64,000 nucleotides of DNA, from positions 2,542,001-2,606,000 of the forward strand of contig NZ_CP061008.1 of NCBI RefSeq assembly GCF_014490035.1, written 5' to 3'. Source of the stretch: Achromobacter xylosoxidans. Lineage in GTDB: Bacteria > Pseudomonadota > Gammaproteobacteria > Burkholderiales > Burkholderiaceae_B. Below, piece after piece: positions 37,833 to 42,427 of the stretch. Under the pieces are notes generated by a model. The model ran no database searches. It was not told the origin of the DNA and saw only the letters and a program-made list of their open reading frames with translations. A program made the translations under genes and the position numbers. Each line of letters begins with the position of its first letter. Position 1 is the stretch's first letter.

Positions 37833-39203
37833 TCAATACACGTCGCGGCGGTAGCGGCCGTCGCGCTGCATGGCCTGCAGGCGCGTGGCGCCCAGTATGT
37901 CCTGCAGGGCGGCGTCCACGCCGCCGGCCATGCCTTGCAGGCTGCCGCAGACGTAGATGGCGGCGCCCGCGTCGGCCCAGGCGCGCACGGCTTCAGCTTG
38001 TTCGCGCAGATGGTGCTGCACGTAGCGGCGCTCGGCCTGGTCACGCGAGAACACCCCGTCCACGCGTTCCAGCGTGCCGTCATTGCGCCAGGCGTCGATC
38101 TCTTCCCGGCAGAACCAGTCGTGCGCCGCGTTGCGTTCGCCGAACACCAGCCAGTTGCGGCGCTGGCCCGCGGCGCGGCGCGCCTTGATCAGCGCGCGCA
38201 GGCCGGCCAGGCCGGTGCCATTGCCCACCAGCAGCAGCGGGCGGTCGTCGGCAGGCGCGTGGAAATTGCGGTTGACGCGCACGCGCAGGTCGATCGCGTC
38301 GCCGGGCTGCGCGATATGGGTGAGCCAGCCGCTGCCCAGGCCCAGCGCGCCATCGGCGCCGCGCATCTGGCGCACCAGCAATTGGATCGAACCGTCTTCC
38401 GGCAGCGATGCGATCGAGTATTCGCGGTGCGCGAGCAAGGGGCCGCCGGCTTCGCGCCGCGGGCCGATCTCGGCGATGTCGCCGGCCTGCCAGCCGCGCA
38501 CGCCATCGGCTGGCGGCGTCAGCGTCAGCAGATAGCAGGGGCCGCCCTGGCTGTGCGGATTGAGCTGTTCGCGCGCGGCCAGGCGCCACGATTCGTAGAC
38601 GGGCGCCTGCCAATCGGGCAGGTCGCTGCGTCCTGCCAGCAGGCCCAGGTGATGCTGCCAATGGCGCAGGGCGGCGGGGTCGCCGTTGTCGACTTCAACC
38701 AGGTCGAACAACGGCGTTGCGCCCTGGGCGTGCAGCCAGTCGTCCAGGCGATGGCCGAAGCCGCAGAACTGGGCATATTCGCTGTCGCCCAGCGCCAGCA
38801 CCGCGTAGTGCGCGCCGGCAAGCGCCGGGACCGCCAGCTGCATCTGTTCGGCGAAGACCGCGGCGGCGTCGGGCGGATCGCCTTCGCCATAGGTGCTGAC
38901 CACGAACAGCATGCGGCGATACGCCGCCAGACGCTTGGCGTCCAGCTGTTCCAGCGCCGCCACGCGCACGGCGAGGCCGCCCGCGCGCAGGGATTCGGCG
39001 GTCTGCGCCGCCAGCGATTCGGCGTAGCCGGTCTGCGTGGCGTAGGCGACCAGCAAGGTGTCTTCGGGGACGGGCGCTTGCAGGGCTTGCAGTGCCAGCG
39101 CCTGTTGCGCCTCATGGCGCTTGGCGCGGCGGCGGGCCCAGAGGCACAGGAGCAACCAGGCTCCCACCACGCATGCTGCCGCGATCAACCGGGTTGCTGG
39201 CAT
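37833..39203 (-). CDS. Membrane-anchored flavodoxin-NADPH reductase (sulfite-reductase-flavoprotein-like)
   Basis: A 456-residue diflavin reductase. One N-terminal TM segment (residues 5-24) is followed by an FMN flavodoxin domain (YATQTGYAESLAAQTAE, near 54-70; STYGEGDPPDA), an FAD domain with REYSIAS and GWLTHIAQPGD, and an NADPH-binding part with VGNGTGLAGLRALI and the C-terminal VCGSLQGMAGGVD. It would move electrons from NADPH through FAD and FMN. It ends the putative iron-regulated operon 37833-42239 and is the likely electron donor of the periplasmic flavoprotein chain. Confidence 0.88.
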   Translation of the reverse strand: MPATRLIAAACVVGAWLLLCLWARRRAKRHEAQQALALQALQAPVPEDTLLVAYATQTGYAESLAAQTAESLRAGGLAVRVAALEQLDAKRLAAYRRMLFVVSTYGEGDPPDAAAVFAEQMQLAVPALAGAHYAVLALGDSEYAQFCGFGHRLDDWLHAQGATPLFDLVEVDNGDPAALRHWQHHLGLLAGRSDLPDWQAPVYESWRLAAREQLNPHSQGGPCYLLTLTPPADGVRGWQAGDIAEIGPRREAGGPLLAHREYSIASLPEDGSIQLLVRQMRGADGALGLGSGWLTHIAQPGDAIDLRVRVNRNFHAPADDRPLLLVGNGTGLAGLRALIKARRAAGQRRNWLVFGERNAAHDWFCREEIDAWRNDGTLERVDGVFSRDQAERRYVQHHLREQAEAVRAWADAGAAIYVCGSLQGMAGGVDAALQDILGATRLQAMQRDGRYRRDVY

Positions 39204-39207
39204 GTCG

Positions 39208-40233
39208 TCAGGCTATGGCGGCCAGCGCCTGGAATGCGGGCGTGGCAACGACGCGCCAGGCGTCGCGCTCGCGCAGGATGAACAAGGCCGCCAGATCGTG
39301 GCGGCGCGCATAGGCCAGGCCCTCGTCTGCGCCCAGCACGGTCAGGGCGGTGGCGAGCGCGTCGGCCTGCATGCATCCGGGATGCAGCACGGTGACCGAG
39401 GCCAGATTGTTGCGCACCGGCATACCCGTGCGCGGATCGATGGTGTGGGCGTAGCGCTCGTCGCCGCTGCCCGCGTGGCGGCGGTAATCGCCCGAGGTGG
39501 CGATGCTGCGGTCGGACAGCGGCAGCGCCAGCGCATGGTCGTCGCTGGCGTCCGGCACTTCGATCGCCACGCGCCAGGGCTGGCCGTCGGGCCGTTTGCC
39601 GCGCGCGCGCAATTCGCCGCCGACTTCGACCAGGTATTGGGTGATGCCCAGCGCATCGAGCGCCATCGCGGCGCGGTCCACGCCGTAACCCTTGGCGATG
39701 GAGGAAAGATCCAGATAGGCGCCGCCCGGCTGCAGCGCGGCGCGGCGGTCGGTGTCCAGCTGCACGCGGCGCCAGCCGCAGCGGGCGCGCGCGGCCTCGA
39801 TGGCGGCAGGCGCGGGCGGCTCGAAGGCGCGCTGGTGCGGACCGAACCCCCAGGCGTTCACCAGCGGTCCCACCGTGGGGTCATAAGCGCCGCCAGTGTC
39901 CCCGGCCAGCGCCAGCGCGTGGCTCAGCACATGGAAGAATCCCGCCGGCAATTCCTGCCAGCCAGCGGCGGCCTGGTTGTAGCGCGTGATGTCGGAATCC
40001 GCTTCCCAGGTGCTCATCTGGGCGACCACTTCGTCCAGTGCCGCCTGGATGGCACGGCGCGCCGCGGCTTCCGTGCGCCCGGCCGGCAGCGCCATGCGCG
40101 CCGACCAGGTGGTGCCCATGGTGGCGCCGGCCAGCGCCGCGGGCGCTGCCGGCATTGCGGGCATGGCGCCATAGGCGACGCGCACGGCAGTAGCCGGCGC
40201 GCCGCTCTGGGCGTAGGAAGGAGAGTTGGCCAT
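39208..40233 (-). CDS. apbE: FAD:protein FMN transferase ApbE
   Basis: A 341-residue ApbE that attaches FMN covalently to a Ser or Thr of partner proteins. Motifs: GATMGTTWSARM near the N-terminus, DLSSIAKGYGVD, GGELRARG, AHTIDPRTG and ADALATALTVLG. I chose the ATG at 40233 because it has [11 protein letters not shown] bases upstream (GAAGGAGAG) and begins 14 bases after the previous stop. No clear Sec or lipoprotein signal is seen, which is odd because its presumed target (DUF2271) is exported. A substrate motif for it, DGVSGAT, is in the neighbouring DUF2271 protein. Confidence 0.92.
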   Translation of the reverse strand: MANSPSYAQSGAPATAVRVAYGAMPAMPAAPAALAGATMGTTWSARMALPAGRTEAAARRAIQAALDEVVAQMSTWEADSDITRYNQAAAGWQELPAGFFHVLSHALALAGDTGGAYDPTVGPLVNAWGFGPHQRAFEPPAPAAIEAARARCGWRRVQLDTDRRAALQPGGAYLDLSSIAKGYGVDRAAMALDALGITQYLVEVGGELRARGKRPDGQPWRVAIEVPDASDDHALALPLSDRSIATSGDYRRHAGSGDERYAHTIDPRTGMPVRNNLASVTVLHPGCMQADALATALTVLGADEGLAYARRHDLAALFILRERDAWRVVATPAFQALAAIA

Positions 40234-40247
40234 GCGCCTGCGGCGGG

Positions 40248-41048
40248 TTAGGGCTGCAGCACTTCGACCGTGCCTGCGTAGGACAGGCGGCGCTTCTTGG
40301 CTTGCGGCACGCTGACCTTGGCATCTTCCATGCCAGCCTCGATCCAGTACAGGCCGGGCTGCGGCCACTTCACGGAGAACTTGCCGTCCTTGTCCGTCTT
40401 CAGCTGGATTTCGCCGACCTTGTCGCGATAACGGCTGCCGCCGGGCACCACGTTGACTTCCAGGTCGGCGGCGGGCTTGCCGTCCAGCAGCATCTGGAAG
40501 GTGGCGGGCTCGTCGGTGAACAGGTCGTTCGGGTGGGTCACGGGGGCCAGTTCCAGGCCGCGGCCGACCGGCTTGACGGCCGAGGGCTTGCCGGCGGTCA
40601 CGAAGGTTTCGACGCGACCCAGGCTTTGCGAGACTTCCAGCTCATCGGCCTTGGCCGGCACGGCCTGCGCCAGGCCTTCGGGCTTGCCGAAGTAGCGCTT
40701 GTTCTTGCCGTCTTCCTTCCAGCGCGCGAACACGCCGTCGTTGACCACGGCCACGCGGTACGTGCCGGCCTGCTTCAGTTGCAGGTCGAAGGTGCTGCGC
40801 AGCTTGCCCTTATTGACGTTTTCGGCTTCGGCGGCGCTGCCGTCCGGAGCCGTCACGGCCAGGCCGTCCAGGCGCAGCGGGGCGTGGTTGAAATAGAACT
40901 TGTCGTTGCCGACGGCGGCGTCGACGGTGACCCAGCTGTCGACGCCGGACAGCACCGTCGAGGACGGCACCATCCAGACGTCATGCGCCTGGGAGGCGAA
41001 GGGCAGGCACAGCGCCAGGGCGGCGGCCAGTTTGGCGGCGGATTTCAT
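40248..41048 (-). CDS. DUF4198 periplasmic protein
   Basis: A 266-residue exported protein with a signal (LAAALALCLPFASQA near residues 6-20, then HDVWM, the typical beginning of DUF4198 after cleavage). Most of the chain is beta-rich with FSVKWPQPGLYWIEAG near the end. DUF4198 proteins are periplasmic and often neighbour metal-uptake genes. It is the third gene of the PepSY-DUF2271-DUF4198-ApbE-reductase operon. A metal-binding or scaffold role is possible; the function is not established. Confidence 0.85.
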   Translation of the reverse strand: MKSAAKLAAALALCLPFASQAHDVWMVPSSTVLSGVDSWVTVDAAVGNDKFYFNHAPLRLDGLAVTAPDGSAAEAENVNKGKLRSTFDLQLKQAGTYRVAVVNDGVFARWKEDGKNKRYFGKPEGLAQAVPAKADELEVSQSLGRVETFVTAGKPSAVKPVGRGLELAPVTHPNDLFTDEPATFQMLLDGKPAADLEVNVVPGGSRYRDKVGEIQLKTDKDGKFSVKWPQPGLYWIEAGMEDAKVSVPQAKKRRLSYAGTVEVLQP

Positions 41049-41068
41049 CGTTGCGCTCCTAGGAGATC

Positions 41069-41584
41069 TCAAGGTTTCAGGTCGAGCGCGATGGCGCCCA
41101 GTTCGTGTTCGCCGCGCGCGGTCAATTGCCCGGCCTTTTGCGGCGGCCATTGGAAGGGAATGCGCAGCAGCTCGCGGCCGCCGACTTCTCGCGCGGCTTC
41201 GACCACCACGGCGTACTGGCCAGGCTTCAGGCCCGACAGCGGCTTGCTGGCCGCGTCAAAGCTCAGCGCGTGCTTGCCCACGGGCTTGGTCGCGCCGCTG
41301 ACGCCGTCCACCGGGAACTGCTGATTGCGGCCGCTGCGGCGCCACCATTGGCGCATGTCCTTGAGCCATTCCGTGCCTTCGTTGTTCTTCTTGGCCACGT
41401 CGTACCAGACGGCCAGGTCGGTCGCGACGCTCTGATCCGGGTTTTCGATCCAGATCGCGACGTAGGGACGGTGGTATTCCGCCACGTCCAGGCGCGGGAT
41501 CTCGATGGACAGGCCGATGTCGGCCGCTTGGGCCGTTCGGGCGATCAGGCCGGCCAGCAGGGCCGACAACAACAGCTTGCGCAT
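41069..41584 (-). CDS. DUF2271 periplasmic protein with ApbE flavinylation motif
   Basis: A 171-residue exported protein (signal residues 1-20, ending RTAQA). It carries DGVSGAT at residues 93-99, exactly the D-x-x-S/T-G-A-T/S pattern that ApbE modifies, with Thr99 the expected FMN site (41288-41290). It also has DLAVWYDVAKKNNEG and a Trp-rich WLKDMRQWWRR just before the motif. With ApbE, a PepSY membrane protein and a diflavin reductase in one operon, it is probably the periplasmic flavoprotein electron carrier. Flavinylation is predicted, not shown. Confidence 0.88.
   Translation of the reverse strand: MRKLLLSALLAGLIARTAQAADIGLSIEIPRLDVAEYHRPYVAIWIENPDQSVATDLAVWYDVAKKNNEGTEWLKDMRQWWRRSGRNQQFPVDGVSGATKPVGKHALSFDAASKPLSGLKPGQYAVVVEAAREVGGRELLRIPFQWPPQKAGQLTARGEHELGAIALDLKP
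41288..41308 (-). other. FMN attachment motif DGVSGAT in the DUF2271 gene
   Basis: Codons for Asp-Gly-Val-Ser-Gly-Ala-Thr on the minus strand; the last codon encodes the Thr expected to receive FMN by a phosphoester bond through ApbE, as in NqrB/NqrC and RnfG. Confidence 0.8.
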
Positions 41585-41612
41585 GGAAATCTCCAGGGGC
41601 GGATCGTTGGAA

Positions 41613-42239
41613 TCAATGTATGAAAAGCAGGGCCAGCACCACCGGGATCACCACGCCCAGGCCGACCATGGGCCAGGTCGCGCTGCGGTTGCCGGCGTGC
41701 ATCTTGAGCAGCACCAGGCCGGTCAGCGAAAAGACCAGACAGGCGACGGCGAAGATGTCCAGGAACCAGCTCCAGGCCAGGCCGGTGTTGCGGCCCTTGT
41801 GCAGGTCGTTCAGGTACGAGATCCAGCCGCGGTCGGTGCGTTCGTATTCCACGTCGCCGCTGGCCAGGTCGATGGACAGCCAGGCGTCGCCGCCGGCGCG
41901 CGGCAGCGACAGGTAGACCTCGTCGGCCGACCATTCGGCGGGTTTGCCGGCGGCAGAGGCGTCCAGCGTCTGGTCCAGCCATTGCGCCACGGGCGCGGGC
42001 AATGGGGCCTTTTTTTGCGCGGGAGGAGGGGACAATTGCTGCAGCACGGCGTCCGGCATGCGGGCCTCGCGGCTGGTCACGACCGCCCGGGCCTCGATGT
42101 GCGAGGCGTTGTTCAGGGTCAGGCCCGTCACCGCGAACAACAGCATGCCCAGCAGGCACAGCGCCGAGCTGATCCAATGCCATTGGTGCAGTGTCTTGAG
42201 CCAATAGGCACGGCGGCGGGGAGTGGGTTGACTGTCCAT
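41613..42239 (-). CDS. PepSY-associated transmembrane protein
   Basis: A 208-residue PepSY-TM-type membrane protein. One TM near residues 20-42 (WISSALCLLGMLLFAVTGL), a periplasmic PepSY-like part (WLSIDLASGDVEYERTDRGW) and then DLHKGRNTG before two C-terminal TM segments. His residues in LHQWHW and DLHKG could be haem or iron ligands. It heads the operon, 35 bases after a Fur-box-like sequence. PepSY-TM proteins occur in iron-siderophore reductase loci, so it may carry electrons across the membrane. Confidence 0.88.
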   Translation of the reverse strand: MDSQPTPRRRAYWLKTLHQWHWISSALCLLGMLLFAVTGLTLNNASHIEARAVVTSREARMPDAVLQQLSPPPAQKKAPLPAPVAQWLDQTLDASAAGKPAEWSADEVYLSLPRAGGDAWLSIDLASGDVEYERTDRGWISYLNDLHKGRNTGLAWSWFLDIFAVACLVFSLTGLVLLKMHAGNRSATWPMVGLGVVIPVVLALLFIH

Positions 42240-42273
42240 GGGGTATAGGGTGAAAGCCCGCGGATTCTAACAT

Positions 42274-42292
42274 TTAATGAGAATGACTCTTA
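42274..42292 (-). promoter_or_regulatory. Fur-box-like sequence upstream of the PepSY/flavinylation operon
   Basis: The 19 bases TTAATGAGAATGACTCTTA match the Fur consensus GATAATGATAATCATTATC at about 12 positions when aligned, and include the typical ATGAGAATGA core. They lie 35 bases before the start of the PepSY gene. No other plausible operator occurs between 42240 and 42427. Iron repression is inferred from the match. Confidence 0.7.
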
Positions 42293-42427
42293 TAAATGTT
42301 GCGTCTGCCCGCCCGAGGAAATTTCAATCGATTTCGGGCCGCGCGTCGCGGCGGGGCGGGGGCGTCGTGGCGCCTGTCTGCCAGCAGCGATAAGATAGGC
42401 CACCCGTTACAAACACCGGAGGTCGTC

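Follow-up and report, generated by a model that had tools for sequence, protein, structure and literature searches.

A PepSY/DUF2271 flavinylation-type operon of Achromobacter xylosoxidans whose ApbE lacks a recognisable export signal

The operon and its published relatives

The DNA analyzed here is a stretch of 64,000 nucleotides from Achromobacter xylosoxidans (contig NZ_CP061008.1, positions 2,542,001 to 2,606,000), referred to below as the window. Its minus strand carries, from 42239 to 37833, a five-gene operon encoding in order a PepSY-type membrane protein, an exported DUF2271 carrier, an exported DUF4198 protein, the flavin mononucleotide (FMN) transferase ApbE and a flavodoxin-FNR reductase, with intergenic gaps of 28, 20, 14 and 4 bases (Table 1). 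An earlier, sequence-only reading of the window had named these families in a same-strand operon, and the coordinates and Pfam matches bear it out. The clustering of a PepSY-like gene with DUF2271, DUF4198 and ApbE marks a PepSY-like flavinylation system, and the operon is an instance of a system that has already been described. Its freshest point is the absence of an export signal from ApbE, which is conserved among relatives and, judged from their leaders, is not an annotation slip.

Table 1. Features of the operon (window positions; aa, amino acids; E, expect value)
Feature	Position	Strand	Basis or remark
PepSY_TM_like_2 membrane protein, 208 aa	41613..42239	-	Pfam PF16357, E 1.3e-88
DUF2271 exported carrier, 171 aa, predicted Sec-type signal	41069..41584	-	Pfam PF10029, E 5.7e-51
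DUF4198 exported protein, 266 aa, predicted mature N-terminal His22	40248..41048	-	Pfam, E 5.2e-60
ApbE FMN transferase, 341 aa, without recognisable signal peptide	39208..40233	-	Pfam PF02424, E 3.9e-89
Flavodoxin-FNR reductase, 456 aa, single N-terminal hydrophobic anchor	37833..39203	-	Pfam Flavodoxin_1, E 1.2e-29; NAD_binding_1, E 3.6e-11
DGVSGAT flavinylation motif, DUF2271 residues 93-99	41288..41308	-	T99 is the predicted FMN site
ApbE N-terminal leader, 35 codons before GATMGTTWS, without hydrophobic core	40129..40233	-	Best 12-residue hydrophobicity 1.13 (window copy, L003)
Candidate Fur-type operator TGAGAATGACTCTTA	42278..42292	.	Genome pattern search and genus conservation

Gene sets of this kind were surveyed by Meheust et al. 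(2021; PMC8238504), excerpts of which report 3220 PepSY-like clusters, of which 2833 contain DUF2271 and 1500 contain DUF4198. Those clusters likewise combine PepSY-like proteins (PF03929/PF16357) with ApbE, DUF2271 and DUF4198. The authors propose iron reduction, including the extraction of siderophore-bound iron, and cite Fur repression in Shewanella and Caulobacter. In the excerpts, however, their methods and a legend refer to extracytosolic components, whereas the ApbE described here has no recognisable signal. The genes CC_3059-3063 of Caulobacter crescentus carry matching annotations, with the same five families in numerical order, and are listed with an iron and Fur response, the values in the two columns ranging from 12.25 to 51.11 (PMC3751524, in part). 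A 2025 paper, also in part, indicates that insertions in CCNA_03155-03159 lower fitness in ethylenediaminetetraacetic acid (EDTA) (PMC12004947). Genes for DUF2271 and DUF4198 are also described as iron-responsive in A. macleodii, where they lie beside iron-responsive TonB receptors. Most of the hypothesis of the sequence-only reading is therefore already in print. Caulobacter nevertheless belongs to a different class of bacteria, and no reductase was found near ApbE, profile search included, in the Caulobacteraceae and Hyphomicrobium loci fetched.

ApbE without an export signal

Conservation was counted in the best 80 of at least 581 confirmed loci from a scan of named genomes. DUF2271 and DUF4198 were detected in all 80, PepSY in 79, ApbE in 68 and the reductase in 61, some of the misses being due to contig ends. 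To judge signals, each candidate leader was scored on its most hydrophobic stretch of 12 residues with a cut-off of 1.6, a simple score that is not SignalP. The ApbE start in the window, the ATG at 40233, was picked by comparison with relatives. The leader that follows it has neither the hydrophobic core nor the cysteine context expected of the N-terminal signal or lipobox of an exported lipoprotein ApbE.

The missing signal had been noticed in the sequence-only reading, and it proves to be a conserved trait. ApbE leaders reach 1.6 in 12 of 67 operons, one more locus having no candidate start. Six of them (L052, L067, L068, L071, L103 and L106) score at least 2.0 and resemble true signal or lipoprotein leaders, while six at 1.62 to 1.86 (L035, L040, L049, L056, L076 and L105) were classed as signal-less by eye. 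A recognisable signal peptide is therefore absent from the operon ApbE in 62 of 68 related operons. Within the genus, the leader was readable in 29 of 31 loci and was always below 1.6 (highest 1.57); a further 29 reads were taken from overlapping genomes. Moreover, seven genus loci have an in-frame stop no more than 45 codons from GATMGTTWS, too close for a longer leader to fit. On a tree of 69 ApbE cores, in which the closest relative of the window copy is from A. agilis, three changes of the signal trait are needed. A short RVxIP-like motif occurs in many signal-less leaders (32 of 68 when matched loosely), too few to claim a function for it.

A literature search, confined to main texts and for the most part to journals free of subscription, found no signal-less operon ApbE of the PepSY/DUF2271 class. 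According to passages of a review, the ApbE of Klebsiella likewise lacks a signal peptide and is cytosolic, but it modifies a soluble fumarate reductase of the cytosol, in contrast to the Sec-signal-bearing target here (PMC12052999). The same passages call the route by which flavin adenine dinucleotide (FAD) reaches ApbE obscure (PMC12052999).

The A. xylosoxidans genome encodes a second ApbE, which lies beside NosL and has a twin-arginine-like leader, and its single FMN_bind match is about 7 kb away from that gene. This enzyme was considered as a rescuer of DUF2271 flavinylation and was set aside in view of 13 genus genomes in which DUF2271 is accompanied by no ApbE but that of the operon. 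In these genomes, each at least 99% complete, the operon-type ApbE is the sole ApbE found and no FMN_bind match was obtained, other target families not having been searched; the leader was read in 12 of the 13. Across a sample of 37 genus genomes, DUF2271 is present in 34 and a high-scoring operon-type ApbE in 33. Three have neither, and one, 78% complete and with the locus confined to a contig of 3.4 kb, has only DUF2271 of the two. Outside this sample, genomes were tested for 38 of the 80 loci, and 28 have a signal-less operon ApbE. One ApbE overall was counted in 22 of these 28, in genomes whose completeness is not given and with the position matched to the operon for four (L044, L056, L073 and L110).

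The flavin carrier

The DGVSGAT motif noted in the sequence-only reading stands: it conforms to the [S/T]GA[S/T] pattern, and all 80 related loci share its T99. By the hydrophobicity rule, DUF2271 is also a flavinylation component with a signal peptide. Its leader scores at least 1.6 in 77 of the 80 loci, as does that of DUF4198 in all 80, and motif and signal-like leader occur together in 31 of 31 same-genus loci. Among the matches listed, the top named DUF2271 relative is from Achromobacter marplatensis (98%). A sequence search of solved structures gave no credible relative, only weak matches to two designed proteins. Excerpts of Meheust et al. report that the DUF2271 protein of A. ursilacus is flavinylated by its own ApbE, with the motif threonine required, and that signal-free versions of DUF2271 and ApbE, co-expressed in E. 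coli, yield flavinylation (PMC8238504). Loading in the cytosol is thus chemically possible.

The membrane electron path

Four histidines of the PepSY protein, H21, H147, H181 and H208, are conserved in 76, 79, 73 and 79 of 79 relatives, respectively. The structural model (predicted local distance difference test 88.2) has one PepSY domain and three long helices. It is proposed that the four histidines fit a di-heme wire, with membrane faces assigned from the helices of the model. FoxB and other PepSY_TM ferrisiderophore reductases likewise possess a PepSY domain and conserved histidine pairs that might hold two hemes. However, the FoxB type, as portrayed in parts of two papers, has two domains and four helices (PMC13038864, PMC8891985). 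A fold comparison of the PepSY model with this type gave a weak match, and a sequence search found no relative among solved structures. The first of these sources states that it is not known what donates electrons to FoxB (PMC13038864).

The reductase of the operon may be such a donor. Its closest NCBIfam model is cysJ, at 241 bits against a cut-off of 668, and because of this likeness to CysJ the reduced form of nicotinamide adenine dinucleotide phosphate (NADPH), rather than NADH, the form lacking the phosphate, is the presumed source of electrons. A hydrophobic stretch at the N-terminus followed by arginines suggests an anchor, with the enzyme on the inner side. Apparent PepSY-reductase fusions among relatives were dropped, as the long frames are an artefact of the first-start rule. 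Among side observations on gene order, Pseudomonas/Stutzerimonas-type operons (L091, L094, L097, L100, L104, L107 and L108) have the reductase directly after DUF4198 and no operon ApbE. In Niveispirillum (L053:13069 region), a second DUF4198-similar stretch (60 bits) lies behind the reductase.

Iron regulation

A Fur-type operator is probably present at the operon promoter. The sequence-only reading had placed a Fur-box-like site 35 bases before the first gene; the measured distance to the PepSY ATG is 38 bases, and the site itself is upheld by genome context but not by the E. coli consensus. The best match to that consensus (a 19-mer) upstream of PepSY is 12/19, which 53 of 500 dinucleotide shuffles equal, and 20 of 78 relatives scored reach at least 13/19. 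The plain consensus was accordingly given up as proof of the site and replaced by the pattern TGAGAATNATTCTCA. With at most two mismatches, this pattern occurs at 10 sites in the 6.76-Mb genome, the operon promoter among them, while the reversed-pattern control gave 0. The pattern was picked after the site had been seen, so that the match in the window is not independent and the test lies in the neighbours of the other nine sites. These neighbours, of which eleven proteins were checked against Pfam, are TonB-dependent receptors (two sites), Nramp (one), extracytoplasmic function (ECF) sigma factors (four), a BFD ferredoxin (one) and TonB (one, at a locus that also holds a PKHD-type hydroxylase). 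The sigma factors appear to be iron-related from their FecR-like neighbours; at one of the four sites, the only one with a Pfam check, FecR follows. In addition, each of the 31 same-genus loci read retains the operator block. The promoter thus has an operator of the Fur regulon type, at which Fur would bind and repress.

A second conserved block, GGAAATTTCAATCGATTTC, lies on the plus strand at 42317-42335 between the Fur-type site and a divergent DUF308 gene; it is kept in the genus alignment and is a possible operator of that gene. Positions 1-1569 of the window are part of a TonB-dependent receptor gene that runs on to the left (L114) and whose upstream region has a perfect TGAGAATTATTCTCA site.

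DUF4198 and the genomic neighbourhood

The DUF4198 protein shares its fold and an N-terminal histidine with a metal-binding solved relative, IsDUF4198 (9gcb), in which, according to part of its description, this histidine binds nickel (PMC12537917). H55 and H172 are also conserved. For the second ligand of IsDUF4198, His18, there is no evident counterpart, an ungapped count without residue-level alignment landing on W39, and IsDUF4198 is found in a NikR context as opposed to the Fur-type context here. Sequence searches of solved structures with DUF4198 did not have 9gcb among the listed matches. Solved DUF4198 relatives are described, in the accounts available, as binding Ni, Zn, Cu or Co. Elsewhere in the same genome, outside the window, a TonB receptor, a second DUF4198 and a PepSY_TM gene lie in a row without DUF2271 or ApbE (L193:4949-10143). 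The second DUF4198 also has a histidine at its predicted mature start, the PepSY_TM protein beside it has no match to any reductase family, and the row is likely a sister iron locus.

From 27 loci, 160 flanking proteins were taken by a longest-frame rule and 81 were scanned. Among the 25 of 73 families listed, TonB-receptor domains are the commonest (8/81), followed by amine oxidase (5) and CrcB (3), and no redox acceptor recurs across loci. The genome holds FTR1 with a P19-type gene and a Fer4_5 gene, and FeoB_C had no match, other ferrous importers not having been searched. Given this combination, ferrous iron may enter via an Ftr-type permease.

Proposed mechanism and alternatives

Based on the current evidence, the operon seems to encode an electron chain that is repressed by Fur and delivers electrons to periplasmic ferric iron, with DUF2271 loaded with FMN in the cytosol; a probability of about 0.6 is given to this reading. 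NADPH would reduce the flavodoxin-FNR protein at the inner face, which would pass electrons to an inner-side PepSY heme (H21/H181) and then across the membrane to an outer-side heme (H147/H208). DUF2271 with FMN on T99 would take up the electrons and use them to reduce Fe(III), either as such or in a chelate. DUF4198, with a putative metal site marked by the mature N-terminal histidine, would hold the iron or hand it on, and Fe(II) would enter through the permease. The iron chain put forward in the sequence-only reading keeps its iron regulation, its ApbE-DUF2271 pairing and its membrane electron path, on the strength of sequence and the published gene set, with its siderophore acceptor as a candidate. 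One published point leads in another direction: CC3060 and CC3061 are reported, in an excerpt, to fall in a zur mutant.

Since ApbE has no export signal, FMN would most likely be joined to DUF2271 before Sec export. The fuller claim, that a cytosolic ApbE loads the preprotein in a compartment rich in FAD, that Sec exports the flavin-bearing chain, that this is usual in the operon class and that no periplasmic FAD is needed, is plausible at somewhat less than even odds. The six operon ApbEs with signal or lipoprotein leaders, and the three Stutzerimonas genomes read, in which the sole ApbE lies elsewhere than the operon and has a lipoprotein-like leader, fit the alternative that ApbE leaves the cytosol by a non-classical route and that DUF2271 receives its FMN in the periplasm. 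Periplasmic flavinylation is the standard model, most characterised ApbEs being periplasmic lipoproteins in the review's account (PMC12052999). Yet none of the 29 readable same-genus leaders has a hydrophobic stretch, and the nearby stops in seven exclude a longer one, so that non-classical export is possible but rather doubtful.

As to the acceptor, a rival reading is a ferric siderophore that would be bound and reduced in the manner of FoxB. Siderophore-bound iron was suggested for this cluster type by Meheust et al. (PMC8238504, in part), and TonB-receptor domains do lead the flanking families, while the second DUF4198 has a TonB receptor on one side and a PepSY_TM gene on the other. However, the operon flanks read contain no TonB receptor, the one at the left end of the window being about 36 kb away, and the Caulobacter fitness data, as excerpted, concern EDTA stress rather than a named siderophore (PMC12004947). 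A specifically siderophore-bound acceptor is accordingly regarded as unlikely. A chain that handles a metal other than iron, for instance copper or nickel carried by DUF4198, would agree with the metals bound by solved DUF4198 relatives and with CrpH of B. pertussis, a PepSY_TM protein tied to copper in part of one paper (PMC13038864). The operator, by contrast, is of a Fur type common to iron genes, and the operon in Caulobacter is iron- and Fur-responsive (PMC3751524, in part), which makes another metal highly improbable.

In conclusion, the system is ordinary, and it is the conserved lack of an ApbE export signal that makes FMN loading before export the simplest reading. The co-transcribed flavodoxin-FNR protein is a candidate donor for FoxB-like PepSY reductases. 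Likewise, an ApbE apparently confined to the cytosol offers a handle on the obscure supply of FAD to this enzyme, for which genomes with the operon ApbE as the sole ApbE and no FMN_bind protein found would be a clean test bed.

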